A stretch of 64,000 nucleotides of DNA from contig JAFRYZ010000037.1 in NCBI GenBank assembly GCA_017442825.1, positions 1-64,000 on the forward strand, in the 5' to 3' direction. The DNA is from Prevotella sp. GTDB taxonomy: Bacteria > Bacteroidota > Bacteroidia > Bacteroidales > Bacteroidaceae. How positions within the stretch are numbered: the first letter of the stretch is position 1; each line of letters opens with the position of its first letter. The notes beneath the pieces were generated by a model, which was not told where the DNA came from, ran no database searches, and was given only the letters and a program-made list of their open reading frames with translations. This document shows positions 14,663 through 53,300 of the stretch, piece by piece. A program made the position numbers and the translations under genes.

Positions 14663-14744
14663 TTTACCTTCCCCTCCCCTAACCAGGGGAGGACGGGAGG
14701 GGTCTTGTTTCTCCCCCTAAACAGGGGGAGTTAGAGGGGGTCTT
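14663..14744. repeat. GC-rich hairpin repeat pair (family H), copy 1
   Basis: Two tandem units, CCCCTCCCCTAAC-CAGGGGAGG-ACGGGAGGGGTC and CTCCCCCTAAACAGGGGGAG-TTAGAGGGGGTC. Each is a hairpin with an extra G-rich tail. It sits between the terminator and the 3' end of a truncated secreted-protein gene. Near-identical copies follow the two intact relatives. Confidence 0.85.
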
Positions 14745-14745
14745 C

Positions 14746-15644: not shown

Positions 15645-15717
15645 TTCCTCCCCTAAACAGGGGAGGACGGGAGGGGTCTTGTTTCTCCCCCTAAACAGGG
15701 GGAGTTAGAGGGGGTCT
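15645..15717. repeat. GC-rich hairpin repeat pair (family H), copy 2
   Basis: Same two-unit structure as the copy at 14663-14744 and nearly identical in sequence. It lies directly after the stop of the 15720 gene, between it and its terminator. Confidence 0.85.
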
Positions 15718-15719
15718 TC

Positions 15720-17186: not shown

Positions 17187-17268
17187 CTTAACCTTTCCCC
17201 TCCCCTAAACAGGGGAGGACGGGAGGGGTTTCGTTTCTCCCCCTAAACAGGGGGAGTCAGAGGGGGTC
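17187..17268. repeat. GC-rich hairpin repeat pair (family H), copy 3
   Basis: Third near-identical copy of the two-unit hairpin repeat, directly after the stop of the 17271 gene. This makes the sequence of C-terminal codons, hairpin repeat and terminator a threefold repeated block at 14.6, 15.6 and 17.1 kb. Confidence 0.85.
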
Positions 17269-17270
17269 TC

Positions 17271-18215
17271 TTATTTCAGCTGAGCACCAGCAACGTTGAA
17301 CTTCTTGCCAGCCTTAACGATAACAACCTTACCGTTCTCAACATACTTCTTAACAGAAGCAGCTTCAGCCTTGTCAGCAACAACACCATTGATACCAGCG
17401 GTCTCTGTAACTACAGAAGCATCCAGCTTGCTCTCAGAGAATACGAAACCGTCGATGGTCACCTTAGAACCCTGAGCGTGGAGGAGGTATGTACCTGCTT
17501 CAGCATAAACCGGGAAAGAGATGATGCCCAGACCATTGATCTTCTGGTCAGCAATGTCAGCACCCCAAGCAATCTTCTCCGGCCAACGGAGACCTGTTCC
17601 GTCGCAGTAAATGTTAGAGGGATCCTGTGCTGCAGTGAAGTAGCCATCAGCGTCAGCAGGAAGAGTGTAGTTGATGTCCATAGCACCTTCAGGACCTGCC
17701 TTGAGCAAGTGCTGGGTATAGGTGTAAGCCATTACAGGAGGATTGGAAACGGCAGTACCTTCCCAAACATAATACTGCTTGTTGGAAGACAGCTTGCAGA
17801 TAGCATAAAGGAAACCATCCTTTTTAACATTGAACTGAATAACAGCACCAGCAGTAGGACAAGAAGTCAGCGTTGGAGCGGGAGACGGGTTCATCTGTCC
17901 CTGAACACCAGTAGTAGCTTTATATTCAGTACCACCAATGTTGACAGCCTTTGCATTGTCTGCTTCACCAGCCAAAGCAGTAGCCTTGTAACCGATGTTG
18001 TCGTAAGGAGTTACCATATCAACATTTTCTGATGAGCATAATACAGCACCAGCAGCAAGGTTGTAACCCATAACATCAGCGCCTTTTGAGTCCTGACCAA
18101 CAACAGTCATTTCCATGCCAGCGAAGAGTGTTTCAGTGTCAACGAAAGCACTTTCCTGTGCGAAAGCTCCCATAGACATCGTCATGGCAGCTACGATAAG
18201 TAAACTTTTTTTCAT
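17271..18215 (-). CDS. Secreted protein of unknown function, type IX-like tail
   Basis: 314 residues from ATG 18215 (MKKSLLIVAAMTMSMGAFAQ, signal peptide). The body is beta-rich with no catalytic motif I recognise; segments include VMGYNLAAGAVLCSSENVDM, FNVKKDGFLYAICKLSSNKQ and SKVTIDGFVFSESKLD. The last 30 residues (KKYVENGKVVIVKAGKKFN then VAGAQLK) are almost identical to the tail of the 15720 gene and to the stump at 14746. It lies downstream of susC-susD-lipoprotein on the same strand without a clear promoter of its own, so it may be read from the same transcript. It is probably exported and attached outside the cell; a role in polysaccharide binding is a guess from position. Confidence 0.78.
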   Translation of the reverse strand: MKKSLLIVAAMTMSMGAFAQESAFVDTETLFAGMEMTVVGQDSKGADVMGYNLAAGAVLCSSENVDMVTPYDNIGYKATALAGEADNAKAVNIGGTEYKATTGVQGQMNPSPAPTLTSCPTAGAVIQFNVKKDGFLYAICKLSSNKQYYVWEGTAVSNPPVMAYTYTQHLLKAGPEGAMDINYTLPADADGYFTAAQDPSNIYCDGTGLRWPEKIAWGADIADQKINGLGIISFPVYAEAGTYLLHAQGSKVTIDGFVFSESKLDASVVTETAGINGVVADKAEAASVKKYVENGKVVIVKAGKKFNVAGAQLK

Positions 18216-25147: not shown

Positions 25148-27850
25148 ATGACAGCAAAAGAAATCCGCGAATCGTTCAAGAAGTTTTTCGAATCGAAAGG
25201 TCATGTCATCGTACCTTCGGCTCCGATGGTCATCAAAGACGACCCTACCCTGATGTTTACCAATGCTGGTATGAACCAGTGGAAGGATGTCATCCTCGGC
25301 ACCAAACAGCCTGAGCCGCGCCGCCGTGCCGACACGCAGAAGTGCCTGCGCGTGAGCGGTAAGCACAACGACTTGGAAGAGGTGGGTCACGACACGTACC
25401 ACCACACCATGTTCGAGATGTTGGGCAACTGGTCGTTCGGCGACTACTTCAAAGAGGGTGCCATCGACATGGCATGGGAATATCTGGTTGATGTCTTGAA
25501 ACTCGACCCGAAGGACTTGTATGTCACCGTCTTCGAAGGTGATGCTGCGGAAGGTCTGGAGCGCGACAACGAAGCTGCCGGCTACTGGTTGAAGCACGTG
25601 CCTGCCGACCATATCATCAACGGCAACAAGCACGACAACTTCTGGGAGATGGGCGACACAGGACCTTGCGGTCCCTGCTCGGAGATTCACCTGGACTCGC
25701 GTTCTGCCGAAGAGAAAGCCAAGACGCCTGGTCGTGAACTGGTCAACAAGGACGACCCACAGGTCATCGAGATATGGAACCTGGTGTTCATGCAGTTCAA
25801 CCGTAAGGCTGACGGTTCGTTGGAGAAACTCGCCATGAACGTCATCGACACGGGTATGGGCTTCGAACGCCTGGTGCGTGCCCTGCAAGGCAAGCAGTCG
25901 AACTACGACACGGATGTGTTCCAACCCATCATCAAGGAGGAAGAACGCATCACGGGACTGAAATACAACGCTAAGGACTCTAAAGACCCTAAGGACCTTA
26001 AGGACTCTAAAGACCTTAAAGACCTTAACACCGCAGAGGAAATCAACGTTGCCATGCGCGTTTGTGCAGACCACTTGCGTGCTGTCGCCTTCGCCATTGC
26101 CGACGGTCAGCTGCCGTCGAATGCGAAAGCTGGGTATGTGATCCGTCGCATCTTGCGCCGTGCCGTGCGCTATGCCTACACGTTCCTAGGCCAGAAAGAG
26201 GCTTTCATGTTCAAGTTGCTGCCTGTATTGGTTCAGGAGATGGGCGATGCCTTCCCCGAACTGAAAGCACAGCAGGAACTGATAGGACGCGTCATCAAGG
26301 AAGAAGAAGACTCGTTCCTGCGCACCTTGGAGCGCGGCATCAATCTACTGGACAAGGCGATGGAGGAGTTGAAGGGTAAGGAGAAGCAGGTTCTCGATGG
26401 AACCGCTGCCTTCCGCCTGTTCGACACCTATGGATTCCCACTCGACCTGACCGAACTCATCTGTCGCGAGAACGGAGTTACGGTTGACGAAGAGCAGTTT
26501 AATGCTGAGATGCAGAAGCAGAAAGAACGTGCCCGCAACGCTGCGCAGGTAGAGAACGGCGACTGGGTGACTGTCAATTCACAATTGACAATTGACAATT
26601 CACAATTATCCCAAATCTTTGTAGGCTACGACTATACGGAATACGAATGTCATATCCTGCGCTACCGTCAGGTGACACAGAAGAAGAACACCTATTATGA
26701 ATTGGTACTCGACTATACACCGTTCTACGGTGAGATGGGTGGACAGGTAGGCGACCAGGGTGTGCTCGTCAGCGAAGACGAGACGGTGGAGATTATCGAC
26801 ACCAAGCGCGAGAACAACCAGAGCATACACATCGTGAAGCAGCTGCCGAAGAACCTGACGGCTGACTTTATGGCATGCGTTGATACCGACAAGCGTGCTG
26901 CCAGTGCTGCCAATCATACGGCTACCCACCTGCTCGACTATGCGCTGAAGCAGGTGCTCGGCGACCATGTAGAGCAGAAGGGTTCATTCGTCAGTGCCGA
27001 CACATTGCGCTTCGACTTCTCCCACTTCGAGAAGGTCAGCAACGAACAGTTGCGCGAGGTGGAGCGTATGGTGAACAGCATGATTCGTGAAAACATACCC
27101 CTTGACGAGCATCGTGATACGCCGATAGAGGAAGCCAGGAAGATGGGTGCCATAGCACTCTTTGGCGAGAAGTATGGCGACAAGGTGCGCGTGGTGCGCT
27201 TCGGACCGTCGTGCGAACTCTGTGGTGGTATCCACGCGACAGCTACCGGTTGCATCGGACTGTTTAAAATTATGAGTGAGTCGAGCGTAGCAGCAGGTAT
27301 CCGCCGTATCGAAGCCAAGACAGGCAAGGCGTGTGAGGAGTTGCTGTACGAACTGGAAGACTCTATCAATGCCATCAGCAGCTTCTTCAACAACGCACAA
27401 GACTTGCAGACTGTCATCGAGAAATATATCAATGAGCATGACAGTATGAAGAAGGAGATTGAAAAGTACGAGGCGGAGGCTGTTGAGCGCACAAAGGCAA
27501 GACTGCTGGAGAAAGCACGCTTGGTGAACGGTGTGACTGTCGTTTCTTCCGTAGAACCGTTAGACAGCGATACTGCCAAAGACCTGGTATTCAAGATTCG
27601 TGAAGCTGTTCCTGAGCATCTGTTATGTGTCATCGGTTCTAACTACCTGGACAAACCGTTGCTGAACGTGATGTTGAGCGACGACATGGTGAAAGGACAC
27701 GGACTGAATGCCGGACAGATGGTGCGCGAAGCTGCCAAACTGATAAAGGGCGGCGGCGGCGGTCAGCCCCACTATGCCAGCGCCGGCGGTAAAGACATTG
27801 ACGGACTGAGTTCCGCTATAGACAAAGTCATTGAATTGGCAAACTTATAA
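25148..27850 (+). CDS. alaS: Alanyl-tRNA synthetase
   Basis: 900 residues from ATG 25148 ([19 protein letters not shown]), longer than the usual ~875. The class II catalytic core ([48 protein letters not shown]), the editing domain ([17 protein letters not shown] ... [14 protein letters not shown] zinc site) and the C-terminal domain are complete. Two low-complexity insertions account for the extra length: about residues 275-294 ([11 protein letters not shown] type, 9-bp repeat) in the catalytic domain loop before [15 protein letters not shown], and about 475-489 ([14 protein letters not shown], 7-bp repeat) before the editing domain. The frame is kept in both. An essential enzyme, so the insertions must be tolerated. 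Confidence 0.97.
25971..26029. repeat. In-frame 9-bp array in alaS (family C)
   Basis: Six and a half units of the type CTAAGGACC/TTAAAGACC, palindromic around AAGGACCTT. Translated as tripeptides (S/P/L)KD. The same unit occurs inside the acyl-CoA synthetase gene (48295-48369) and between the two paaK genes (51282-51340). Confidence 0.9.
26572..26609. repeat. In-frame ATTGACA-type array in alaS (family E)
   Basis: CAATTCACAATTGACAATTG-like sequence, period 7 with one irregular step, translated as [12 protein letters not shown]. The same family fills 29927-30018 and is found in mutY and near the end of the pectate lyase. Confidence 0.85.
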
Positions 27851-30018: not shown

Positions 30019-30769
30019 GGTAGAACAACAAAATATACAACAGAGACTGACCATACGCACGGGAAATGATGAGTTAGCGTTTGCTGTCGGTAAGCCGAAC
30101 GATTCGGGCAAGATGGATTTTGAATCTTATGAGGTGAATATGGCCATTTCGATGGCTGCCAACCTGCGTGAGGCATTCACAACATCGGAATTGTTGCAAA
30201 GGGAGTATCAGAAGGTGTTGATACTCATTGACGCTCCCGTGATGATGGTCCCGATAGAAGAGTTCCAGGAGGACGATATGGAAACGCTGTATCACGCCTG
30301 CTTTACCGGACAGAAAGGGAACATCGTGCTCAGCAATGTCGTACCCACACTGAATGCTGTTGCCGTCTTTGCCGTGAACAAAGATTTCAATACGGTCATT
30401 ACAGACCATTTCGAGAATGTGAGCTTTATGCCTACAGGACAGCCCGTTTGGGAGTATCTGCGCGAGAAGGGTGTGGGAAGAGCGGAACACGGAGAGAAAC
30501 TGTTTGCTTTCTTCCACGACCAACGCATGGAAGTGTTCTGCTTCCAACAGAACCGTTTTAAGTTCTTCAACAGCTATAACACCCAACATGCTCACGATGC
30601 CTTGTACTATCTGCTGTATGCATGGAAGCAGTTGGGCTTCAAAGCTGAATCAGACTTCTTGTATCTTACAGGAGAGGTGACACAACGAAACTGGCTGGTT
30701 GAAAAACTGCACCAATATCTACAACACGTCATGACAGTAAACGATGCGGATTATTACAGGAAAATATAA
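30017..30769 (+). CDS. DUF3822 protein
   Basis: 250 residues from ATG 30017 (a TTG one codon earlier is unlikely). The protein has the DUF3822 layout: a beta-rich N-terminal half (QRLTIRTGNDELAFAV, KVLILIDAPVMMVPIEEFQ) and an actin-like-fold second half with KLFAFFHDQRMEVFCFQQN and NTQHAHDALYYLLYAWKQLG. The family is Bacteroidetes-specific and of unknown function. Its genes usually stand just before rsmD, as here, where the two overlap by 26 bases. The leader is repeat DNA, so there is no clear ribosome-binding site, which is common in this phylum. Confidence 0.88.
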   Translation: MVEQQNIQQRLTIRTGNDELAFAVGKPNDSGKMDFESYEVNMAISMAANLREAFTTSELLQREYQKVLILIDAPVMMVPIEEFQEDDMETLYHACFTGQKGNIVLSNVVPTLNAVAVFAVNKDFNTVITDHFENVSFMPTGQPVWEYLREKGVGRAEHGEKLFAFFHDQRMEVFCFQQNRFKFFNSYNTQHAHDALYYLLYAWKQLGFKAESDFLYLTGEVTQRNWLVEKLHQYLQHVMTVNDADYYRKI

Positions 30770-31409
30770 AGGGCGGCATTTTGACATTCCGCGCACGTTC
30801 AAGGCTCGGCCAACGACCGACTTTGCCAAAGAGAACATCTTTAATGTGCTCAATGGGTATATCGACTTTGATGGTGCTTCCGCCCTTGACCTCTTCTCCG
30901 GCACGGGAAGCATAACACTCGAACTGTTGTCGAGGGGGTGCGAGAGGGTGGTCAGCGTTGAATTAGACAGGGACCATCACCGGTTTATTAAGGCGTGCAT
31001 AAAAAGCCTCACCCCCGCCCCCTCTCCAAAGGGAGAGGGGAGTGGTCAGTTTCTGCAATCGGATACTCAAGGAGTTAATCTATCTACTCCCCTCTCCCTT
31101 TGGAGAGGGGTTGGGGGTGAGGCTGTTCCTATCCGTGGCGACGTGTTCCGTTTCCTGAAGACATGCAAACAGCAATTTGACTTTATCTTTGCCGACCCGC
31201 CATACGCACTGAAGGAGCTGCCGACCCTGCCAGATCTTATTTTTCGGGAGAACGAGGGTGCGGAAGGACAAGACAATACCAGCGCTGGACTTTTGAATCC
31301 CGATGGCCTTTTCGTTCTAGAGCACGGCAAGGACCACGACTTCTCCAGACATCCGCACTTCGTGGAGCATCGCCATTACGGCAGTGTCAACTTCAGTATC
31401 TTCCGATAA
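30744..31409 (+). CDS. rsmD: RsmD, 16S rRNA (guanine966-N2) methyltransferase, with 40-residue insertion
   Basis: 221 residues, longer than the usual ~180. MRIITGKYKGRHFDIP and RPTTDFAKENIFNVL are the family start, ALDLFSGTGSITLELLSRG is the SAM-binding motif, and DFIFADPPYAL is the catalytic DPPY motif. RsmD methylates G966 of 16S rRNA on the assembled 30S particle. Residues 88-127 (SLTPAPSPKGEGSGQ ... WRGVGGEA) are the translation of a 120-bp palindromic element inserted exactly at a codon boundary, between the helix after motif I/II and the strand RGDVFRFL. Removing those 40 codons restores a standard RsmD. The gene overlaps DUF3822 by 26 bases. Confidence 0.95.
   Translation: MRIITGKYKGRHFDIPRTFKARPTTDFAKENIFNVLNGYIDFDGASALDLFSGTGSITLELLSRGCERVVSVELDRDHHRFIKACIKSLTPAPSPKGEGSGQFLQSDTQGVNLSTPLSLWRGVGGEAVPIRGDVFRFLKTCKQQFDFIFADPPYALKELPTLPDLIFRENEGAEGQDNTSAGLLNPDGLFVLEHGKDHDFSRHPHFVEHRHYGSVNFSIFR
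31005..31124 (+). repeat. 120-bp palindromic coding element in rsmD (family G)
   Basis: Terminal inverted repeats of 39 bp (31005-31043, 31086-31124) starting AGCCTCACCCCCGCCCCC and ending GGGGGTGAGGCT, with a 42-bp interior. Each arm also contains its own small palindrome (CTCTCCAAAGGGAGAG). It begins in phase 0 of the gene and is exactly 40 codons. The copy in dnaG has the same length, arms, orientation relative to the gene and phase. Confidence 0.93.
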
Positions 31410-31448
31410 CAGATACTACGCGACAACGATACTACAGGACAACGCATA

Positions 31449-31476
31449 AAAAAAGGTCGTTATTGAACGACCTTTT
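31449..31476. terminator. Bidirectional terminator between rsmD and pectate lyase
   Basis: AAAAAGGTCGTT pairs with AACGACCTTTTT around ATTG. The pectate lyase stop codon lies inside its right arm. Confidence 0.85.
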
Positions 31477-33325
31477 TGTTTCCCTTAATCACAATGCCTT
31501 TGTAGTTGGCATCGACTTTCTGTCCTGCAAGATTGTATATCGGAGTGTCGATGGATAATTGTCCTTTGTCAATAGACAATTGACGAATACCTGTCGGTGT
31601 CGCATTTTTGTAGAATCCTACAAGTTTCGACTTGTAATTCTGCACAGCACTCTTCAGTTCAGGAATAAGTTCACAATTCTTATCTTCCACCGCATTGTCG
31701 AACTCCCAAGAGAAGTCACCCTTCTGGCAACGACCGGCACCATACTTTCCCGTTACCGCTGCAGGAACATCCTCTGTAGCAAGTGGCGTGCATGCGTAGA
31801 ACTCACCGTCGGTCGTGTCGAAGTTGCTGTAAGTTGAACCGCCGTTCTTTGCAACGATAGAAGAAGGAACCTTCTCTTCCCTGGAACTTACCTCATAGGC
31901 ATCCAATCCATATTCGCTGGTGGCTGTATGCTGGTTATAATAAGATGTAGCGCCTTCAATATGGTTGTTGTAGGCTTTACATACGCCACCTTCTTCACCC
32001 GTCATGACGCCTTTGGATTTTGTTCCCTTCGCCTTCAAATCGGCAATATGCCACAAATCAGAGCCTTGCACAGAAGAAACGATAGGGTATCGGCAGTTAC
32101 GGAACCAGTTGTTCTCAACAAAAGCACTTGAAGCCGATGCCAGACCTACGCCATAGAGTCCGTTACCATCATAGTAATTATTATAAACATGGAAGGCTTC
32201 ACCATGACGGAGACGGGGCAGACGCTGATCGGCATGGTCGAACCAGTTGCCGCAATAAGTCAGGTTGTTGGCATAGAATGTGGCCCTGGTATCACCTGCA
32301 TCAACAAGACAACATTTGCCACAGTCGAAATAGTGATTGGCAGATATGGTGCAATAGCGTGAATCCTTGGTGTCGATGGCACCATCGCCCTTAACCTTAT
32401 CTCCACTACCTCCCTGTCCATAGAACAAATCCATGTTGTGAATCCAGATATTCGTGTTATAGCGGGATATTTCCACGCCATCGTCCAGACAGAGCAGGAT
32501 ACCAAGATTACGAACTTCAACACCAACAGCGTTACTGATTTGCATACCAAAATTATAAAGCGTAGCATCGTTACCTACACCTTCTAACGTCAGCGGCATC
32601 TCAATATGCTCTTCATTTTGCGCCTGCGATTTGATATGCAGTCCTTGACTGGATGCCATCTTGTCACAATCATCCTTCTTGACGGTTCCCACAATACGGA
32701 TGCAAAGTGGTTTTTTCATGCCCCCGCCATCAATACACTTGCGGAATCCATCAATGACGTTGTTTAAACCCGTCCAAGTCACAGGTTCTCTACCCTCATA
32801 ACGAGGCCAATTGACGGTGATGTCTTTGGCATTCTGAGCAGTTACATACAGAACAACAGCATCATCTTTCAGTGTACCGTCGTTCTTATAGGCACCAACA
32901 CCCTCTGTCCAACCGCTGGTAGGACGGTTCATGTGGGCGAAACCCTGACGGTTATGCGCACGCACATCCAGGGCATCCGTGACTGAAGCCTCATTGGTCA
33001 ACTCTACACCTTTTGAATCAACAGGCACCACCTTCAGCTGATAGTTGCCAGCCTTCAAGCCAAGTGCGTCGGCACGACCATAAGAGCCATAGTTGCGGAC
33101 CAGTTCGTTGTCGAGTTGAGTCCATGAGTTCTGACCTGCAGGACTTACATAGACGTTGTAAGCCTGAGCACCGCTCATGTTGATCCACTCTACCCAAGCC
33201 GTCTCCAGCCAACCATCAGCAGCCTGAATGGTTACGGCAGCAGCCGATTTCAATGTAGCAACAAACAGCAACACTACTGTCATAATGAGACCATGAAAAA
33301 TAGTCTTACGATAAGAAAAAGTCAT
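31460..33325 (-). CDS. Secreted pectate lyase (PL1) with type IX sorting domain
   Basis: 621 residues. Signal peptide (LIMTVVLLFVATLKSAAA), an N-terminal fibronectin-III-like domain (about residues 40-115), then a PL1 parallel beta-helix. WIHNMDLFYGQGGSGDKVKGDGAIDTK holds the calcium-binding Asp residues, and RLPRLRHGEAFHVYNNYYDG holds the catalytic Arg and the conserved HVYNNYY. The C-terminus IYNLAGQKVDANYKGIVIKGNKKVVQ is a type IX secretion sorting domain, so the enzyme is exported by that system. Just before it, RQLSIDKGQLSID is a translated family E repeat. The enzyme cuts demethylated homogalacturonan by beta-elimination, working after the pectinesterase at 12.7 kb. It has its own promoter. 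Confidence 0.94.
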   Translation of the reverse strand: MTFSYRKTIFHGLIMTVVLLFVATLKSAAAVTIQAADGWLETAWVEWINMSGAQAYNVYVSPAGQNSWTQLDNELVRNYGSYGRADALGLKAGNYQLKVVPVDSKGVELTNEASVTDALDVRAHNRQGFAHMNRPTSGWTEGVGAYKNDGTLKDDAVVLYVTAQNAKDITVNWPRYEGREPVTWTGLNNVIDGFRKCIDGGGMKKPLCIRIVGTVKKDDCDKMASSQGLHIKSQAQNEEHIEMPLTLEGVGNDATLYNFGMQISNAVGVEVRNLGILLCLDDGVEISRYNTNIWIHNMDLFYGQGGSGDKVKGDGAIDTKDSRYCTISANHYFDCGKCCLVDAGDTRATFYANNLTYCGNWFDHADQRLPRLRHGEAFHVYNNYYDGNGLYGVGLASASSAFVENNWFRNCRYPIVSSVQGSDLWHIADLKAKGTKSKGVMTGEEGGVCKAYNNHIEGATSYYNQHTATSEYGLDAYEVSSREEKVPSSIVAKNGGSTYSNFDTTDGEFYACTPLATEDVPAAVTGKYGAGRCQKGDFSWEFDNAVEDKNCELIPELKSAVQNYKSKLVGFYKNATPTGIRQLSIDKGQLSIDTPIYNLAGQKVDANYKGIVIKGNKKVVQ

Positions 33326-33367
33326 TTTCAGTTTAATAGATTAGTGTAAAAATCAAAATTGTCGGTG

Positions 33368-33399
33368 CAAAGATAGTGCATTATGTTTACGTACACAAA
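33368..33399 (-). promoter_or_regulatory. Promoter of pectate lyase
   Basis: On the minus strand TTTG (33396-33399), 20 bases, TATCTTTG (33368-33375), about 40 bases before the start codon. Confidence 0.7.
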
Positions 33400-33422
33400 T
33401 AAAAGCAGAAAAAAATTGACTT

Positions 33423-34898
33423 TTACAATAGAGGAGAAAGCAAACGCACCAAAGACTCCCAAAGTCTTTGGAGGAAAGGACGACGGTCCAGGTTCATGAC
33501 GTCGTCAAGCAGAATAGCCTGTGCCTCGTCGGCAAAATAGACCTGCTTTAATTGCTGTGCAAACGATTCATCGTAGATAAAGACACTTGCCTCGAAGTTG
33601 TTTTCAAACGAACGGAAATCAACATTGACCGAACCGACAGAAGCTAATGTGTCGTCACAAATCAACAGTTTGGAATGGTTGAACCCGGATTGGTACAGAT
33701 AGACTTTTACACCGGCTTCGATGGTTTCCAACACGTACGACCGTGATGCCCACTCTACCAGTTTCGCATCCACATGCTCTGGTACCAACAGGCGCACATC
33801 TACTCCTGCCAAAGCTGCTGTGCGCATGGCAAAGAGGATAGGTTCTGTCGGAAGGAAGTATGGTGTCTCGATATATACATATTTCTGAGCTTCCAACAAA
33901 ACGCGAACATATCCTTGTTCAATGTCAGGCCATGGACTGATAGGACTGGAGGTGACGACCTGCATAAGGGTGGAGGATGGAGAGTGGAGAGATGAGAGTG
34001 GAGAGTTCTTGCTTTGGCAAGCGCTTCGCGATGAGAGAGATGAAGAACTGGGGTAATAGGCTTTACCCGTAATCAACGTGCGGTCAACAAAATACCAATC
34101 TACCAAAAACGCCCGCTGCAGTCCATAGACTACACTGCCCGTCAGTTTCAGATGTGTGTCACGCCAAGCCACATGCTTGACACCTTTCACATAGCGCATG
34201 GCGATGTTCATACCACCTATGAAGCCCGTAGCACCATCGACGACACAAATCTTACGGTGGTTGCGGTAGTTGACTTTACTGGTAAAAGCAGGGAAGCGTA
34301 CAGGCATGAACGAATGTACTTCCACTCCCCCCTCGCGCAGATGTTCGAAGAAACTGTTCTTCACCTTCCAGCATCCAACATCATCATAAATCAACCGAAC
34401 TTCCACTCCTGCCTTCGCCTTGTCGATCAGTGCATCGGCGACCAGTCGTCCCAATGGATCATCTTCTATGATATAGGTGGTGATATGGATATGGTGGGTT
34501 GCCTTGCCAATGGCCGTGAGCAAAGCAAAAAAGAATTCGTATCCATCGGTATAGATGTCGGCCTGACTGTCTTTGAAAGGAAGAGCCCCACTCTGATTAG
34601 TAAAAAGGTTGATCAGCGAACGATGCTTTTCAGGCAACATCAAGTCACGCTGTTCCGAAAATTCTAGCATCGAACGCTTAGTCAGTTGGTCAAGACTATG
34701 TTGCGAGATGAAACGTTCCTTGCGGATGTTTTGCCCGAAAAAGAAATAGAGCAGGATGCCCACCACGGGCAGGAAGATCAGCACGAGCATCCATGCCATC
34801 GTCTTCGACGGTTGACGACGGTCGAGCAACACGGTCACCATTGTACCAATAACGATGATACCGTAGAGCAGGATTCCTATCCAATGGATGTAATTCAC
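33423..34898 (-). CDS. cls: Cardiolipin synthase
   Basis: 491 residues. Two N-terminal membrane spans (IGILLYGIIVIGTMVTVLL; MLVLIFLPVVGILLYFFF) and two phospholipase D HKD motifs, NYRNHRKICVVDG and GFNHSKLLICDD, each with the following G/S residues. The enzyme joins two phosphatidylglycerol molecules, or related donors, into cardiolipin at the inner membrane. Residues about 279-312 (PSSSSLSSRSACQSKN ... SSTL) are a Ser-rich stretch encoded by a 7-bp G/A-rich repeat and a GCGCTTCGCGA-containing piece, inserted between the end of the first PLD domain (GKAYYP) and the second (MQVVTSSP). It follows dnaG by 37 bases on the same strand. Confidence 0.94.
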   Translation of the reverse strand: MNYIHWIGILLYGIIVIGTMVTVLLDRRQPSKTMAWMLVLIFLPVVGILLYFFFGQNIRKERFISQHSLDQLTKRSMLEFSEQRDLMLPEKHRSLINLFTNQSGALPFKDSQADIYTDGYEFFFALLTAIGKATHHIHITTYIIEDDPLGRLVADALIDKAKAGVEVRLIYDDVGCWKVKNSFFEHLREGGVEVHSFMPVRFPAFTSKVNYRNHRKICVVDGATGFIGGMNIAMRYVKGVKHVAWRDTHLKLTGSVVYGLQRAFLVDWYFVDRTLITGKAYYPSSSSLSSRSACQSKNSPLSSLHSPSSTLMQVVTSSPISPWPDIEQGYVRVLLEAQKYVYIETPYFLPTEPILFAMRTAALAGVDVRLLVPEHVDAKLVEWASRSYVLETIEAGVKVYLYQSGFNHSKLLICDDTLASVGSVNVDFRSFENNFEASVFIYDESFAQQLKQVYFADEAQAILLDDVMNLDRRPFLQRLWESLVRLLSPLL

Positions 34899-34907
34899 AA
34901 TTCAGAA

Positions 34908-34937
34908 TTCACCTTTCACCTTTGACCTTTGACCTTT
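34908..34937. repeat. Short CCTTTGA-type array (family J)
   Basis: Four units of period 7 (CACCTTT, GACCTTT, GACCTTT) in the 37-base gap between dnaG and cls; the last unit contains part of the dnaG stop codon. Confidence 0.75.
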
Positions 34938-36927
34938 AAACCACGATGTCACTACCGAGCCGGCGAGCCAGCACATTACGGATGTCTTGCATGCGTTTAT
35001 ACTCGCCCATCACCTGCATCATCTGTTCAACATTGTCGTGCAGGGTTGACAACTGTGCACGCAGGGCTTTCAGGTTCTTATCCACCCAGTCCATGCGGAA
35101 GTCGAGAACCAGATGCATGACTTGGTCGCGGAGGTAGTTCTCATGCTGATTCACTTCCAAACTTTTCGACAGTTTAAACTCATCGGCACTCAGTTGTATG
35201 GCAAGGGTGCTCAGTTGAAGATCGGGATGACGTGTAAAATACTCCTCAGCCTTGAAGCCTTCGTCGTGACTATGCTCCACAGCCTCCTCAAGGATTCTTG
35301 CATACATGGGGTTGGTAAAATGCAGATTGTCCAAACTGAGGTCGTAACTGATATATTGAGCCACGTTCAGATTGATTTTCTCGCCTGTGGTCTCGTCTTC
35401 CACATCGCGAATGATCACCTCTTCACCATGACGGATAACGGCCTGGATGAGAAGGGTTTCGATGGAAGAAGCCTCACCCCCGCCCCCTCTCCAAGGGGAG
35501 AGGGGAGTAGAAACTTCTTGTGATTGAGAATTCGATGAGGAAGACTGACCACTCCCCTCTCCCCTTGGAGACGGGTCGGGGGTGAGGCTTTGCTTCTCCT
35601 GATAGATCATCCTATTCATCTGTGCAATGATGGTCTGTTCTGCCATTCCTGTACGATTGGCACATTCCCTCACGTAGGTTGCACGGAGGATTTGGTCTTT
35701 AATGACCGAGATGCTCTTCACAATCGAGTTAATGGCCTCACTGCGTTTGATGGGATCGGTAACCCCCTTCAACAATTGGTCTATCTTGAAGACAATGAAG
35801 TCCGTCTGATGTTCGTCGATATATTTTCGAAATTCTGTCGCCGTATGCTTGCGGGAGAATGAATCCGGGTCGTCACCATCAGGCAAGAGTAACACCTTCA
35901 CGTTCATTCCTTCAGACAACAGCATGTCCGTTCCACGCATGGCTGCATGAATACCGGCTTCGTCGCCGTCATAAAGAAGCACGATATTGGAAGTGAAACG
36001 GTGCAACATGCGAATCTGATGAAAACTGAGCGCCGTTCCTGAATTGGCTACAACATTCTCGATGCCACACTGGTGCATGGCGATGACGTCTGTATAGCCT
36101 TCCACCATATAGACACAATCAAGTTTGGCGATAGCCTTTTTAGCTTGGAAAATGCCATAGAGCTCGCGTTCCTTATGATAGATGTCCGAATCGGGAGAGT
36201 TGACATATTTCTGTTGCACACCTTTCGTGGCAGCATCCAACTTTCTGCCGCCAAAAGCAACAACTTTACCGCTGACTCCCAACCAAGGGAAGATGACACG
36301 CCCGGCAAAGCGGTCAATCAATTGTGGGGAAGTGGCAGACGAACCGTTTTCGTCACGTCGCTCGTAACAGAGACCCGTCTTTACCAAAAACTCCTCTTTA
36401 TAACCTGCCGCTTTCGCTGCCTTCGACATGGCATCGCGCTTCTGTGGAGCATAACCCAGTCTGAAACGGGCAATAATATCGTCGCGTATGCCTCGACTAC
36501 GGAAATATTGCATCCCGATAGCCAGTCCGTCAACATCATGGTGTAGGATGTTTTCAAAAAACTGAGCACCCCATTCATTGACCAAAAACATCGACTCGCG
36601 TTCGCTCTCTGCTTTACGTTCGTCGTCGCTCAACTCACGCTCGCGTATTTCGATATGGTATTTATTGGCAAGCCATCGCAATGCCTCCGGATAGGTCATC
36701 TGCTCATGCTTCATGATGAAGTTCACGGCACCGCCCGCCTCACCACACGAAAAGCATTTGTAAATACCTTTCACTGGTGACACATAAAACGACGGTGTAG
36801 TGTCATCGTGAAAAGGACACAACCCCACATAACTCGTACCGCGCTTGCGCAACGATACGAAATCGGACACCACATCTACGATGTTAGCCGCATCGACTAT
36901 CCTGTCTATCGTTTGTCTGTCTATCAT
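34936..36927 (-). CDS. dnaG: DNA primase DnaG, with 40-residue insertion
   Basis: 663 residues from ATG 36927. The CHC2 zinc finger (CPFHDDTTPSFYV ... YKCFSCGEAGG) is at about residues 37-65, the primase N domain follows, and the TOPRIM domain has YMVEGYTDVIAMHQCG and IVLLYDGDEAG. A C-terminal helical region for DnaB binding ends the protein. DnaG makes the RNA primers for replication. Residues 447-486 (SLTPDPSPRGEGSGQ ... WRGGGGEA) are a 120-bp palindromic element inserted at a codon boundary in the linker between the catalytic core and the C-terminal domain. The promoter -7 box lies only 7 bases before the ATG, so the transcript is nearly or fully leaderless. Confidence 0.96.
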   Translation of the reverse strand: MIDRQTIDRIVDAANIVDVVSDFVSLRKRGTSYVGLCPFHDDTTPSFYVSPVKGIYKCFSCGEAGGAVNFIMKHEQMTYPEALRWLANKYHIEIRERELSDDERKAESERESMFLVNEWGAQFFENILHHDVDGLAIGMQYFRSRGIRDDIIARFRLGYAPQKRDAMSKAAKAAGYKEEFLVKTGLCYERRDENGSSATSPQLIDRFAGRVIFPWLGVSGKVVAFGGRKLDAATKGVQQKYVNSPDSDIYHKERELYGIFQAKKAIAKLDCVYMVEGYTDVIAMHQCGIENVVANSGTALSFHQIRMLHRFTSNIVLLYDGDEAGIHAAMRGTDMLLSEGMNVKVLLLPDGDDPDSFSRKHTATEFRKYIDEHQTDFIVFKIDQLLKGVTDPIKRSEAINSIVKSISVIKDQILRATYVRECANRTGMAEQTIIAQMNRMIYQEKQSLTPDPSPRGEGSGQSSSSNSQSQEVSTPLSPWRGGGGEASSIETLLIQAVIRHGEEVIIRDVEDETTGEKINLNVAQYISYDLSLDNLHFTNPMYARILEEAVEHSHDEGFKAEEYFTRHPDLQLSTLAIQLSADEFKLSKSLEVNQHENYLRDQVMHLVLDFRMDWVDKNLKALRAQLSTLHDNVEQMMQVMGEYKRMQDIRNVLARRLGSDIVV
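35470..35589 (-). repeat. 120-bp palindromic coding element in dnaG (family G)
   Basis: 39-bp inverted ends (35470-35508, 35551-35589) nearly identical to those of the rsmD copy, and a 42-bp interior that is diverged but shares GGTCAGT next to one arm. It is inserted in phase 0, exactly 40 codons, with the same strand relative to the gene. Its peptide matches the rsmD copy at both ends and differs in the middle. Confidence 0.93.
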
Positions 36928-36933
36928 TGGACG

Positions 36934-36965
36934 CAAAGGTACGACGAAGGGAGCAAAATGCCAAA
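36934..36965 (-). promoter_or_regulatory. Promoter of dnaG-cls
   Basis: On the minus strand TTTG (36962-36965), 20 bases, TACCTTTG (36934-36941). Transcription would start at or within a few bases of the ATG at 36927. Confidence 0.7.
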
Positions 36966-43920: not shown

Positions 43921-43954
43921 TTACATAGTGGAGCAACAAAACTATACATACAAA

Positions 43955-45610
43955 ATGACTGAAAAGAAATTATTATTAGGTGACGAGGCGATAGCATTAG
44001 GTGCCATCCACGCTGGTCTTTCAGGCGTTTATGCCTATCCTGGCACCCCGTCAACTGAGATTACCGAGTTTATTCAGGGCAATGCCATCGCCCACGAACG
44101 AGGCATCCACAGCCGTTGGTCAACCAACGAGAAGACTGCCATGGAAGCAGCTTTGGGAATGTCGTTCATGGGTAAGCGCGCCTTGGTGTGCATGAAGCAC
44201 GTAGGCATGAACGTCTGTGCCGACCCGTTCGTCAACTCCGGCATGACAGGTGTTAACGGCGGCGTTGTTGTCTTGGCTGCCGACGACCCCTCCATGCACT
44301 CTTCTCAGGACGAGCAGGACAGCCGTTTCTACGGTAAGTTTGCCATGATTCCCACCTTCGAGCCCAGTTCTCAGCAGGAGGCTTACGACATGATGGCAGC
44401 AGCCTTCGATTACTCCGAACAGCAGAAGTTGCCGGTACTGATGCGTGTCACCACCCGTATGGCGCACTCCCGTGCGGTTGTAGAGGTAAAGACAGAAGCT
44501 CGCACCGAGAACGAGATGAACTACAATGCCGTAGCAGCCAACTGGGTGTTGCTTCCTGCCAACGCACGCAAGCGCAACGATGCCGTTACGGCTCAACAAG
44601 CAACCCTTGAAGACGATGCGGCAAACTCTACCTATAACAGCCTCACCCCCAGCTCCTCTCCAAAGGGAGAGGGCAGCAAGTCGCCTTTAGGCATCATCGC
44701 CAGTGGTATTGCATACAACTACGTTAACGAGTGTTTCCCTGAGGGCTGTCCCTATCCCATTTTGAAGATTTCTCAATACCCATTGCCCAAGAAACTGGTT
44801 CGCCAGATGCTGACCACATGCGAGAAGGTGATGATTATAGAAGAAGGACAGCCGTTCATCGAAGATATCGTTCGCGGAGTATCTGATTATCATCAGCCAT
44901 CAACACCCGACACACCACAAATATTGGGTCGTCTCACGGGTGAACTGCCAAGAACGGGCGAACTGAACCCCGATATCGTCAAGAAGGCTTTGGGCATGGA
45001 GACTGGACAGAACTACGCCCCTTGCGAGGACGTCGCACCACGTCCGCCAGCACTTTGTCAGGGTTGCGGTCATCGTGATGTCTATACAGCCCTCAACGAA
45101 GTATTGAAAGAGTATGAAAATCCACGTGTCTTCGGCGACATTGGCTGCTATACCCTTGGTTTCCTGCCCCCCTACAGAGCCATCCACTCTTGTGTAGATA
45201 TGGGTGCCAGCATCACCATGGCAAAAGGTGCCGCCGATGCCGGGCAGTGGCCAGCCGTAGCCATCATCGGCGACTCCACCTTTACCCACAGCGGCATGAC
45301 GGGTTTGCTCGATGCCGTCAACGAAAACGCCAACATCACGGTCATCATCAGTGATAACCTGACGACCGGCATGACCGGCGGACAAGATTCTGCTGGAACC
45401 AATAAGTTTGAAGCCATCTGCCGTGGTTTGGGCGTTCCCGAAGGACACCTGCATGTTGTTGTTCCTCTGCCGAAGAATATGCCGAAAATCACCCGCATCC
45501 TCCGCGAAGAAATCAACTACAAAGGCACGAGTGTTATCATTCCTAGAAGAGAGTGCATCCAGACACTCAGAAGACATCTGAAACAGCAAAAAGCACAGGA
45601 GAAGAAGTAA
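43955..45610 (+). CDS. iorA: Indolepyruvate:ferredoxin oxidoreductase alpha subunit
   Basis: 551 residues from ATG 43955 (MTEKKLLLGDEAIALGAIHAG); a GTG at 43928 is less likely. The pyrimidine-binding half (YAYPGTPSTEITE, STNEKTAMEAALGMSFMGKR) and the TPP-binding half (PPALCQGCGHRDVY, GDIGCYTLGFLPPY, GDSTFTHSGMTGLLDAV) are present. With IorB it oxidises aryl-2-oxoacids with CoA and ferredoxin. The C-terminal two-cluster ferredoxin domain seen in many IorA proteins is missing: the protein ends in a Lys-rich tail without Cys clusters. Residues 229-241 (SLTPSSSPKGEGS) are one arm of the 120-bp palindromic element, in the same frame as in rsmD and dnaG. Confidence 0.93.
   Translation: MTEKKLLLGDEAIALGAIHAGLSGVYAYPGTPSTEITEFIQGNAIAHERGIHSRWSTNEKTAMEAALGMSFMGKRALVCMKHVGMNVCADPFVNSGMTGVNGGVVVLAADDPSMHSSQDEQDSRFYGKFAMIPTFEPSSQQEAYDMMAAAFDYSEQQKLPVLMRVTTRMAHSRAVVEVKTEARTENEMNYNAVAANWVLLPANARKRNDAVTAQQATLEDDAANSTYNSLTPSSSPKGEGSKSPLGIIASGIAYNYVNECFPEGCPYPILKISQYPLPKKLVRQMLTTCEKVMIIEEGQPFIEDIVRGVSDYHQPSTPDTPQILGRLTGELPRTGELNPDIVKKALGMETGQNYAPCEDVAPRPPALCQGCGHRDVYTALNEVLKEYENPRVFGDIGCYTLGFLPPYRAIHSCVDMGASITMAKGAADAGQWPAVAIIGDSTFTHSGMTGLLDAVNENANITVIISDNLTTGMTGGQDSAGTNKFEAICRGLGVPEGHLHVVVPLPKNMPKITRILREEINYKGTSVIIPRRECIQTLRRHLKQQKAQEKK
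44639..44677 (+). repeat. Solo arm of the palindromic coding element in iorA (family G)
   Basis: 39 bases starting AGCCTCACCCCC, matching one arm of the rsmD and dnaG copies but without interior or second arm. It starts in phase 0 and gives SLTPSSSPKGEGS. It lies between the first and second TPP-fold halves of the protein. Confidence 0.85.
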
Positions 45611-47670: not shown

Positions 47671-49794
47671 TCATTTCTCCACCCTGATGCGGGCATCAAC
47701 AGCAATGACATCATTTTCATCGGCAAGCAACGGATTGATGTCCATCTCTTTGATTTCCGTTGCAAAACGAAGCAATGTTGACAGTCGCACGATAATCTCG
47801 GCATATTTCCGTTTATTGATACCCTTCATTCCGCGCGTACCTTTTATAATCTTATATCCACGCAAGGAATTGATCATGCTGTATGCCTCTTCATAGCTCA
47901 ACGGTGCCAGACCCGACGACACATCCTTGAGCACTTCGACAAAGATGCCGCCCAGTCCGCAGAGGACCACATGTCCGAAGCGTTCCTCGTACTTAGCCCC
48001 AATAAAAAGCTCCGTACCTTTTATCATTTTCTGCACCATCACCGAAGTAGCACCGTAAATCTTCATCAATCGGTCGAACTCTGCTGCCAGCACCTCTCGG
48101 CTACGAATGTTCAGCGCCACACCGCCGACATCACTCTTATGCACAGGTCCCACCACTTTTGCCACTACAGGATAGCCACACTTGTCGGCAAAGTCCAAGA
48201 CCTCCTCCTTCACCTCACTGACAAACTCCGGCACGGTAGGTATTCCTGCACATTCAAGGAGTTCGCGAACCACATGTGGAGGCAGGTAACCATCGTCTTT
48301 ACTGTCTTTGGTGTCATTAGGGTCTTTAAGGTCCTTAGAGTCCTTAGGGTCCTTAGGGTCCTTCAAGCTGTCTATAATCCTCCTGATGCGCGGCACGTCA
48401 ACCCCGTGTATATCCACCTGCTGGTCTGCCGGTGCCGGTGTTTTCATCACCTGTGTCAGTGCTGTTGCCAGCGTCACCTCATCGGCAAAGTTCACATGAC
48501 CTTTCTTCAAGAACTCCTGCACCTCCGGTCCGGCCGTATTCACACTCGGCAAGATGGGGAAGATAGGTTTCTTGCACTCCAAAATTTTCTGGTGCAACAC
48601 GGCATAGGCATCATACAGCCGCACCAAACCCGGTGAACCGAAGATCACCATGATGGCATCGATGTTGTCGAAGTGCTGCTCACAATAGTCGATGGCGATA
48701 CCCAAATGTTCGGGCGTACCCGTTGCCAACACATCAATGGGGTTGCTGACGGCAGCACCAGGCAGCAACTTCGACTTCAGTTCCTCTGCTCTCTCACCGC
48801 TCAGAAGGGGTACCTCCATGCCTCCTTTCGACAAGGCATCGGTCAGCATCACACCAGGACCACCGGCATGGGTGACGATAGCAAAGTTCTTACCCGTGAA
48901 CTTAGGCAAGGTAAAGATGCAACCCACTGTCGTCAGTTCCTCACGCGAGAAGCAACGAACGATGCCTGCCTTACGGAAGAGCGCTTCCACGGCAGAGTCA
49001 CTGGATGCCAGAGCTCCCGTATGGCTCGATGCAGCCCGGCTTCCACTCTGTGATGTTCCGGCTTTAATGGCAGCAATACGACATCCCTTCCGTATCAGCG
49101 ACGTGGCATGATACAGCAGTTTGTCAGGGTCGGCAATGTTTTCGATATAGAGCAGTTTCACCAGCGAATCCTTCTCAACATCGAAATGCTCGTCCATATA
49201 CTCCAGTACGGTCTCAATACCAATCTGTTTGCCGTTGCCTATCGACCACACCGAATTGAACGGTAACCCTTTCGACACGGCACTCTCCAAGATAAAAACC
49301 GCCGTAGCCCCAGAACCAGAGATAAAATCGACCCCTTTCGGATTCAAGTTCGGTATAGGCTTCGTAAACACCGAATGGTGCCAGCGTGTCAGCAAACCGA
49401 TACAGTTCGGTCCTATCAAGGCACAGCCATATTTGTCACAGGTTTCTATAATCTGTTGTTCCAACAAGGCACCCTCGTGCGTTTCCTCACTGAAACCAGC
49501 CGAGATAATAATAAATGCACGCACCTGCTTTTCCTTTGCCAGGAATTCCACGTACTCCGGACAGAAACGTGCTGCCACCACCAGGATGGCAAGATCAGTT
49601 GTCGGCAGTTGCTTCACATCATGGAAAACCTTGATACCTTGAATCTCATCCTCCTTCGGATTCACCACACGCAGGACACCTTGATATCCTCCATTCAAGA
49701 TATTGCGGATTACCGCACCGCCAGGCTTATGAACATTATTAGAACCACCGATAACAACAATACTTTCAGGCTGTAGTAACTGTTGGTTAATCAT
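47671..49794 (-). CDS. Acyl-CoA synthetase (ADP-forming), fused alpha-beta
   Basis: 707 residues from ATG 49794 (MINQQLLQPESIVVIGGSNNVHKPGG). The N-terminal CoA-binding domain and succinyl-CoA-ligase-like domains include GPNCIGLL and ASSHTGALASSDSAV with the phospho-His. An ATP-grasp domain ends the protein (YPVVAKVVGPVHKSDVGGVALNI; MVQKMIKGTELFIGAKYEERFG). These enzymes make ATP from acyl-CoA, ADP and Pi. Residues about 475-500 ([15 protein letters not shown] type) are a translated 9-bp repeat in the linker between the ligase part and the ATP-grasp part. With IorAB it can turn aryl-pyruvates into acid plus ATP. It is on the opposite strand to its neighbours, with its own promoter. Confidence 0.92.
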   Translation of the reverse strand: MINQQLLQPESIVVIGGSNNVHKPGGAVIRNILNGGYQGVLRVVNPKEDEIQGIKVFHDVKQLPTTDLAILVVAARFCPEYVEFLAKEKQVRAFIIISAGFSEETHEGALLEQQIIETCDKYGCALIGPNCIGLLTRWHHSVFTKPIPNLNPKGVDFISGSGATAVFILESAVSKGLPFNSVWSIGNGKQIGIETVLEYMDEHFDVEKDSLVKLLYIENIADPDKLLYHATSLIRKGCRIAAIKAGTSQSGSRAASSHTGALASSDSAVEALFRKAGIVRCFSREELTTVGCIFTLPKFTGKNFAIVTHAGGPGVMLTDALSKGGMEVPLLSGERAEELKSKLLPGAAVSNPIDVLATGTPEHLGIAIDYCEQHFDNIDAIMVIFGSPGLVRLYDAYAVLHQKILECKKPIFPILPSVNTAGPEVQEFLKKGHVNFADEVTLATALTQVMKTPAPADQQVDIHGVDVPRIRRIIDSLKDPKDPKDSKDLKDPNDTKDSKDDGYLPPHVVRELLECAGIPTVPEFVSEVKEEVLDFADKCGYPVVAKVVGPVHKSDVGGVALNIRSREVLAAEFDRLMKIYGATSVMVQKMIKGTELFIGAKYEERFGHVVLCGLGGIFVEVLKDVSSGLAPLSYEEAYSMINSLRGYKIIKGTRGMKGINKRKYAEIIVRLSTLLRFATEIKEMDINPLLADENDVIAVDARIRVEK
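48295..48369. repeat. In-frame 9-bp array in the acyl-CoA synthetase (family C)
   Basis: Eight units of the type GTCCTTAGG (plus strand), i.e. CCTAAGGAC in the gene, translated (S/L/P)KD. This is the same unit as in alaS, 22 kb away. Confidence 0.9.
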
Positions 49795-53204: not shown

Positions 53205-53300
53205 AAAGACCCTCCCCAGCCCTCCCTGTTTAGGGAGGGGGCCTCACGCTTCTGCGGTTACTACTCCCTCCCTAAACAGGGAGGGCTGGGGAGGGTCTTT
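53205..53300. repeat. 96-bp inverted-repeat element, ACT gene / mutY junction (family H)
   Basis: Arms 53205-53239 and 53266-53300 are inverted copies starting AAAGACCCTCCCCAGCCC. Each arm also folds on itself (CCCTCCCT gttt AGGGAGGG). The last ten codons of mutY are read from the right arm. It probably terminates both convergent genes. Its halves resemble the hairpin repeats of the 14.7-17.2 kb region. Confidence 0.85.

Follow-up and report, generated by a model that had tools for sequence, protein, structure and literature searches.

The window (the whole 64,000-nucleotide stretch of Prevotella DNA analysed here) carries an rsmD gene encoding the 16S rRNA G966 N2-methyltransferase (30744–31409, + strand), whose 221-codon ORF holds, in frame, a palindromic unit of exactly 120 bp (31005–31124, + strand). 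The unit, recognised by its sequence, BLASTN and fold, starts AGCCTCACCCCC, finishes GGGGGTGAGGCT and reads SLTPAPSPKGEGSGQFLQSDTQGVNLSTPLSLWRGVGGEA. Its 39-bp ends are inverted copies of each other: a left arm (31005–31043, + strand), REP-like and itself palindromic, and a right arm (31086–31124, − strand) that is the left arm inverted. The 42-bp centre between them (31044–31085, + strand) is not palindromic and sets the direction of the unit. The RsmD ORF matches PF03602 over residues 1–90 (107 bits, cut-off 24) and TIGR00095 over residues 2–90 (E 2.3e-27; 95.9 bits, below the cut-off of 117.5), and both matches break off at the element. Coordinates and profile matches agree with a sequence-only reading of this DNA, which had described a 120-bp palindrome with 39-bp inverted ends lying in frame in rsmD.

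A second full unit of 120 bp, reading SLTPDPSPRGEGSGQSSSSNSQSQEVSTPLSPWRGGGGEA in the same frame as the rsmD unit, lies in dnaG (35470–35589, − strand). This gene encodes primase (34936–36936, − strand, start codon uncertain; TIGR01391, 2.3e-125, over residues 3–415 of 654), and alignment with 27 relatives places the unit where a variable linker follows the conserved domain. The sequence-only reading had taken the dnaG copy to share length, arms, phase and orientation with the rsmD copy: the 120-bp length, arms and phase stand, and the shared orientation is weak for this pair, the dnaG centre being near a tie. Its six possible placements per insertion are an over-count, as a palindromic unit has three phases, one of them closed by a TGA built into GGTGAGGCT, combined with two centre directions. 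The element is no product of chance: (i) the two units match each other within the genome by BLASTN at E 1.1e-28; (ii) the folding energy of its RNA strand is −92.3 kcal/mol, where 200 shuffles average −47 (sd 3.95), giving z −11.5; and (iii) an arm pattern allowing up to 2 mismatches finds 141 matches in five same-genus genomes versus 2 for the backward control. A single arm, reading SLTPSSSPKGEGS, also lies in frame (44639–44677, + strand) in the gene for the alpha subunit of indolepyruvate ferredoxin oxidoreductase (43928–45610, + strand; TIGR03336, E 1.5e-157, 525.5 bits, below the cut-off of 650.9).

A single arm already forms a small palindrome of its own, CCCCTCTCC-nnnn-GGAGAGGGG, and reads AGCCTCACCCCC...GGGGAGT in 67 genic units among the matches listed. 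The arm ends in AGCCTCA and bears neither a GTAG nor a CGTC tag. Neither of the two 40-residue peptides matched Pfam or NCBIfam. Rfam gave no match at gathering score across 30700–36000; five of its six sub-threshold matches covered the two units and belonged to microRNA-precursor families, and we take these as chance matches of a long hairpin.

The dominant reading frame of the unit is SLTP...GEGS...TPLS...GGEA, in fuller form SLTPxPSPxGEGS...TPLSxxRGxGGEA, and we name frames by their first residues. A BLASTN search of the unit against the window's own genome (69 contigs totalling 2.31 Mb, 79% complete) gave 39 rows, with many places appearing twice because the unit is palindromic; after dropping rows with E above 0.1 and counting the C61 cluster once, we examined 15 places. 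Besides the two units, these comprise 13 arms that are single or degenerate; called genes contain 11 of the 15 places, 3 are intergenic and 1 is at the end of a gene. Both units and six single arms (L005, L008, L013, L014, L015, L025) are in the SLTP frame; L023 is KPHP-like, L026 ASPP-like, and L022, in a degenerate cluster, is read the opposite way. Single arms recurrently stand just ahead of a C-terminal stretch, TGI[SLTPNPSPKGEGS]xYTLDGRRV (L008, L014, L015, L025; L081, L089, L123, L126, L127, L130, L147). We take this stretch to resemble a type IX secretion sorting domain, and the arms beside it may reflect either a hot spot or joint spread with that domain.

The empty sites anticipated by the sequence-only reading were found in relatives. 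When the window RsmD was searched against 60 same-genus genomes, 57 matched, own included; in G033 the element alone was matched, and among the other 55 genomes with rsmD, 54 matched in two pieces (residues 1 to ~90 and ~125 to 221) that skip the element. The element was absent from all 28 RsmD proteins read among the 54, so the 40 residues are not a shared feature of rsmD orthologues, in the coding lineages included. In G032 (L032/L061/L062) a different, 25-residue GDSP insert sits in the same loop. At the DNA level, two of 398 genomes besides our own match across the loop among the matches listed: G623, which carries the palindromic element, and G607 (L365), which carries a diverged SLSPDPSPSREGG unit, a relative of the element, and lacks the usual VPIRGDV after it. 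A single arm-like insert occupies the loop in G612 (L371, among 29 loci read).

The dnaG linker is variable in the 27 relatives; the inserts of two of them, G022 and G023, appear related on inspection by eye, and the unit is also present in another dnaG, L252. In the window the unit spans the entire linker, and the native linker seems to have been lost, a conclusion drawn for linkers that do not align with one another. The nearest genome, the sister species G623, is syntenic with the window at 74–81% identity over long blocks, and at that distance no strain-level polymorphism was seen. G623 has units in rsmD, in dnaG and, as a third copy, in the intervening gene; the corresponding place of the window holds an unrelated array of 14-bp repeats instead (33967–34017, − strand) inside a gene that we named cardiolipin-synthase-like by eye (33423–34898, − strand). 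The third G623 copy shares 107/120 bases with the dnaG copy of that species (37/42 in the centre), and is thus no more distant from it than the dnaG copies of the two species are from each other (104/120).

Further hosts include MiaB, GltD, MutS2, CarA-CarB, GuaA and pyruvate formate-lyase. Some species have a fused carA and half-length carB (L400–L411, L417); in G031, G033 and G058 the carA-carB' linker is the palindrome or closely related to it, G027 has a degraded sequence resembling it, and the remaining fused species have a plain linker or other repeats. The variety of linkers rules out that the element created this fusion.

Could the rsmD and dnaG loops simply have grown by ordinary, lineage-specific indels, with no mobile repeat involved? 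Both loops do vary in the relatives read, and some hold other inserts. However, the same DNA unit recurs at 53 distinct host sites among the matches listed, and copies in different genes of one genome are nearly identical: in G058 the guaA copy and a copy in another gene share 110/117 bases, as do the copies in two neighbouring ORFs of G031. Ordinary loop variation is refuted by this spread and likeness, and we leave it practically no probability.

We next turn to the position of the units in genes, scored with a purpose-made codon-usage caller rather than standard annotation. A scan of named genomes for compact units used a DNA pattern blind to translation and covered at least 80 loci, of which 64 titled Prevotella, Alloprevotella, Prevotellaceae, Bacteroidaceae, Bacteroidales or Bacteroidia are termed Prevotella-like. 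Among the matches listed, 79 of 82 distinct places were kept (63 Prevotella-like, 12 Hymenobacter, 4 others), the rest being duplicates or units running off a locus. Within these matches, 52/63 Prevotella-like units lie in a called gene, 2 at an edge and 9 between genes, in contrast to 0/12 in Hymenobacter (2 at an edge) and 0/4 in the others (Fisher 5e-8). Genic units measure 103–131 bp among the matches listed. None of the 52 listed contains a stop, which carries little weight since the caller requires an open frame.

Among the same listed matches, the left arm is in the SLTP frame in 45/52 genic units and both arms are in frame in 40/52; under stricter conditions, with a gene score of 80 or more and 60 or more codons flanking the unit either way, SLTP accounts for 37/39. 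The scan overlaps a census of five genomes described below, and merging both with the window units reduced 82 rows to the 53 host sites, 48 of them SLTP, 3 ASPP and 2 KPHP among the matches listed; the merging, by flank similarity, is imperfect, and one SLTP unit (L236) landed in an ASPP cluster. Stop avoidance is only part of this bias, because the ASPP frame is open in 23/37 SLTP units and the reversed unit in 14/37 (among the matches listed). The centre points in one direction in 45/48 listed cases, where stops alone predict 0.73 (p 2e-4); the copies are not fully independent, and deliberately flipped centres were recovered blind in 41/48. Phase and orientation are thus not random in the coding lineages. 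Codon-usage scoring was positive for the SLTP frame alone among the six arm frames, with some element copies included in the training genes.

Among the matches listed, exact-ended genic units have a length divisible by three in 39/48 cases versus 3/11 outside genes (p 0.001), some of the 11 non-genic lengths resting on crude ends. These figures bear on whether the insert is translated at all. It might be cut out of the transcript or skipped during translation, like the bypassed palindromes of Magnusiomyces mitochondria mentioned in the accessible part of PMC6649704, and the mRNA hairpin is indeed very stable. But an insert that is bypassed could be of any length and could contain stops, and both the length bias and the dominance of one frame make an untranslated insert very improbable. 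The centres show no excess of third-position changes (0.48, 0.44, 0.46), so the peptide is not conserved as sequence; what is preserved is openness, frame and perhaps composition. The proposal that the element is selected to be translated without harm therefore survives in part: frame and direction are non-random beyond stops, and the centre lacks the third-position excess.

The five genomes of the census (G023, G031, G033, G049, G058), hereafter the coding genomes, were picked through protein-search matches to the window RsmD. With up to 2 mismatches allowed in the arm, they contain 107 elements, 34 units and 73 single arms, so that the arm occurs alone more often than paired; the window, too, has a lone arm, at 44639–44677. 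Genes hold 28/34 units and 46/73 single arms. Phase 0 combined with a length divisible by three is found in 24/28 genic units; the 46 genic singles comprise 28 in sense phase 0, 9 in antisense phase 0, 5 in antisense phase 2, 2 in sense phase 1 and 2 in sense phase 2. With a cruder caller, 14/23 units have one-frame coding flanks on both sides (12 in phase 0, 2 in phase 2), as do 18/88 single arms (16 in phase 0), with 2 more at a frame shift. Thus, the choice of caller changes the share of single arms placed in genes and leaves the frame bias intact. An assembly artefact was rejected as sole cause, the records coming from several projects and the same host places recurring across different records.

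Is the coding habit a property of the whole family? The arm, with up to 1 mismatch, is present in 208/398 same-genus genomes (own included) at 1 to 95 copies, against 13 matches in 6 of these 398 genomes for the backward arm, and in 19/395 genomes of a phylum-wide sample, own included. From the places among the matches listed we fetched 20 same-genus genomes without regard to coding; they represent 20 of 23 listed genomes (G660, G045 and G746 left out) and part of the listed places, with at most 10 places per genome, and one of them, G016, had been examined beforehand. Calls used per-genome codon models, or a pooled model where DNA was scant. Among the matches listed, these 20 unselected genomes have 13/150 copies in genes and 17 at edges. 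The coding genomes have 67/97 in genes and 10 at edges, which is no genus average, the five having been preselected by protein search. Six unselected genomes have no genic copy among the matches listed (G541 0/14, G718 0/14, G756 0/12, G777 0/12, G583 0/12, G692 0/9); G594 (3/3) and G489 (2/3) are exceptions in the same listing.

Caller failure is not the main reason for this contrast, though it adds error, because the coding fraction of the stretches is 0.68–0.84 in eight of the first nine unselected genomes (0.53 in G555, with two loci) against 0.81–0.89 in the coding genomes. In those first nine, among the matches listed, 6/25 arm pairs span 140 bp or less versus 23/34 in the coding genomes; pairs are similarly frequent and more widely spaced. 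All in-gene compact units among the matches listed come from uncultured or metagenome-assembled records, many titled rumen or forestomach, and in the two named Prevotella isolates of the scan, P. conceptionensis and P. vespertina, the listed copies are intergenic. The idea of a coding element in general does not hold for the family: the coding habit is confined to some lineages, and the family is mainly extragenic in Hymenobacter and in the 20 unselected genomes, because genic copies number 0/12 and 13/150 there (among the matches listed).

These two states bear directly on an alternative: that we are looking at ordinary extragenic REPs, which occasionally land in genes. Arm size, hairpin and the mixture of singles and inverted dimers all fit REPs; the accessible part of PMC3733652 already describes intragenic cases; and the low genic fraction in unselected genomes is what such repeats would give. 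Yet copies in the coding genomes are mostly genic, as are the compact units (52/63 among the matches listed), one frame and one direction prevail at 48/53 sites and in 45/48 centres of the listed matches, and the arm ends in AGCCTCA instead of GTAG or CGTC. We consider ordinary intragenic REPs a doubtful account, although not one wholly exclusive of the reading that we prefer. At odds of roughly 0.8, judging from sequence comparisons, the element is probably a REP/REPIN-like interspersed repeat that has turned, in some lineages, into a translated insertion in protein loops.

What traces does mobility leave? Three species have elements at one guaA site that are closer to elements elsewhere than to one another (0.85 against 0.78, 0.82 against 0.76, and barely so at 0.79 against 0.78); the elements that two species have at one gltD site, with 93% identity, look inherited. 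Some insertions thus seem to be shared, and some permissive places seem to have been filled more than once. Units lie within 6 kb of each other twice in G058 (0.23 expected), once in G031 (0.008), once in G049 (0.05) and never in G033 and G023, which is suggestive of local spread. Target duplications are absent: among the matches listed, 48 units (46 of 52 genic units with exact enough ends plus the two of the window) have no direct repeat of 3–9 bp at their borders, and repeats of 1–2 bp are no commoner than by shuffling. The case for a mobile element is made by the many unrelated conserved genes and the closely related copies within genomes; the duplications sought at the borders do not add to it. 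Inverted extension into the flanks of genic copies does not exceed chance past the two terminal bases (among the matches listed). In the same listing the palindrome extends 7–14 bp into the flanks in 4/12 Hymenobacter copies and one P. conceptionensis copy; these intergenic copies (L218, L253, L266, L286, L287) look as if insertion had taken place in the loop of a hairpin already there, for instance a terminator.

Candidates for the copying step would be a Y1/IS200-type process or fold-back template switching. Movement of the Y1/IS200 type is not supported, because a search for Y1_Tnp came up empty in the genome of the window (79% complete) and likewise in G031 (97% complete) and G023 (56%), two of the five coding genomes, and because no arm with 4 or fewer substitutions lies within ~1.5 kb of 26 Y1 loci found in 13 of 18 other genomes searched; one Hymenobacter Y1 locus has an arm at 5 substitutions. 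Fold-back synthesis leads to another possibility, that the arms are the moving part and a unit arises when two singles come to flank a host segment or when one arm is copied across. Singles outnumber units 73 to 34 in the five genomes, and two wide inverted arm pairs (L103, G033 C19:15465-15698, 234 bp; L109, G049 C18:65965-66240, 276 bp) enclose ~50–65 residues that are host-like by eye, resembling glutamate synthase and not the element centre. The 4-base loops of a unit's two arms also agree in 22/67 cases against 5.3 by shuffling (among the matches listed), as expected of a long hairpin or of one arm copied to the other. Against this, whole units including the centre are alike across genes of one genome (110/117 twice; the G623 centre 37/42), units keep one direction, and arm positions 13–14 agree weakly within a unit (24/67 against 14.3, among the matches listed). 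On balance, moving arms are an unlikely explanation for the units.

A translated REP-like insertion, by comparison, would work as follows. The basic part may be the 39-bp hairpin-forming arm, alone or as an inverted pair around a short centre (compact units of ~103–131 bp), which is intergenic in most carriers sampled and would have entered protein-coding genes in some lineages, that of the window included. The unit presumably moves as DNA and inserts widely; genic insertions that survive would be those in variable loops or linkers that keep the host frame, usually with a length divisible by three. Their product, a linker-like peptide of ~40 flexible residues rich in proline, glycine and serine, is probably translated and tolerated, and the main filter may be purifying selection against other frames. 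Copies would spread within a genome, sometimes to an adjacent gene, and several species have the same permissive place filled, by the palindromic element or by other repeats. SLTP copies with an open centre could seed new genic copies, so that frame and direction would both be inherited. That SLTP outnumbers ASPP calls for a further cause because the ASPP frame is often open; the SLTP linker peptide may be better tolerated, or insertion itself may be biased. The sequences themselves show the genic presence of the element, its frame and direction bias, filled and empty sites, related copies within genomes and dependence on lineage.

A bolder extension, which we put forward tentatively and rate below even odds, is a change of niche within one genus, from intergenic DNA to the protein interior. 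The repeat would then be a selfish element adapted to translation, one that hands down its frame and direction, takes the place of native linkers (as in dnaG) and refills the same loops across species, so that protein loops become its habitat. If so, the bias beyond stop avoidance would reflect selection on the linker peptide, or insertion coupled to transcription or translation.

How does this compare with known systems? The Rickettsia palindromic elements (RPE) are palindromes of 105–146 bp found between genes and in frame within unrelated conserved genes, with a conserved encoded peptide, according to the accessible parts of PMC2229807 and PMC10969869. The Prevotella repeat has a similar size (120 bp in the window, 103–131 bp in genes among the matches listed, set against ~105–150 bp) and lies in frame in many unrelated genes (48 of 53 host sites in one frame, among the matches listed). 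The likeness to RPE proposed by the sequence-only reading would thus hold for size and in-frame genic insertion, and the Prevotella repeat appears to work like RPE, likened by behaviour and not by sequence kinship. Unlike RPE, it belongs to another phylum, is made of REP-like arms that are mostly single, and is mainly extragenic in same-genus genomes not chosen by coding (among the matches listed). A Wolbachia counterpart of RPE and an archaeal coding palindromic repeat reportedly exist, going by titles.

Among REPs, the accessible part of the catalogue in PMC3733652 lists 20–40-bp hairpins, as singles and inverted dimers, some within replication, repair and tRNA modification genes. The Prevotella arm, a 39-bp palindrome present as 34 pairs and 73 singles in five genomes, is REP/REPIN-like; on the extragenic habit of REPs the genomes divide, the 20 unselected ones following it (13/150 genic, among the matches listed) and the five coding ones not. 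It differs from tagged REPs in having neither GTAG nor CGTC, from RAYT-linked REPs in that no Y1 transposase was found beside arms (26 Y1 loci and the own genome), and from REPs at large in being mainly genic in the coding genomes (67/97). Bacteroidales also contain MITEs: BrickBuilt elements are annotated among the intergenic repeats of Porphyromonas gingivalis (PMC5771137, in its accessible part). Like them, the Prevotella repeat is short and non-autonomous, but no target-site duplication (48 units, among the matches listed) and no parent transposon were found. A search of the open-access literature returned no description of such an element in Bacteroidetes. With RPE and intragenic REPs already known, the new part is that a REP-like repeat behaves like RPE and does so in one of two states found within a single genus.

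Coding palindromes have otherwise been a Rickettsia matter, with the Wolbachia and archaeal cases beside it, as far as the accessible sources go, and Prevotella-like gut bacteria would now show the same way of life. The presence of both states in one genus makes testable a question that Rickettsia had left unanswered, whether translated elements are tolerated or adapted and what tips the state. In such genomes, loops of housekeeping proteins (RsmD, DnaG, GuaA, CarA/CarB, MiaB) may be repeat-derived.

The window also contains other repeats. A second REP-like family, with the arm ...CCCTAAACAGGG...GGGTCTT, occurs at 53205–53300, where it forms one perfect 35-bp inverted pair, and at 14672–14745, 15646–15719 and 17198–17271; this family is intergenic or at gene edges. 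Tandem repeats of 9 and 14 bp lie in frame in called genes at 53940–54068, 25963–26037, 48296–48390 and 33967–34017, and similar arrays elsewhere in the window are intergenic or at gene edges. Protein loops of this genome have been entered by several unrelated types of repeat.
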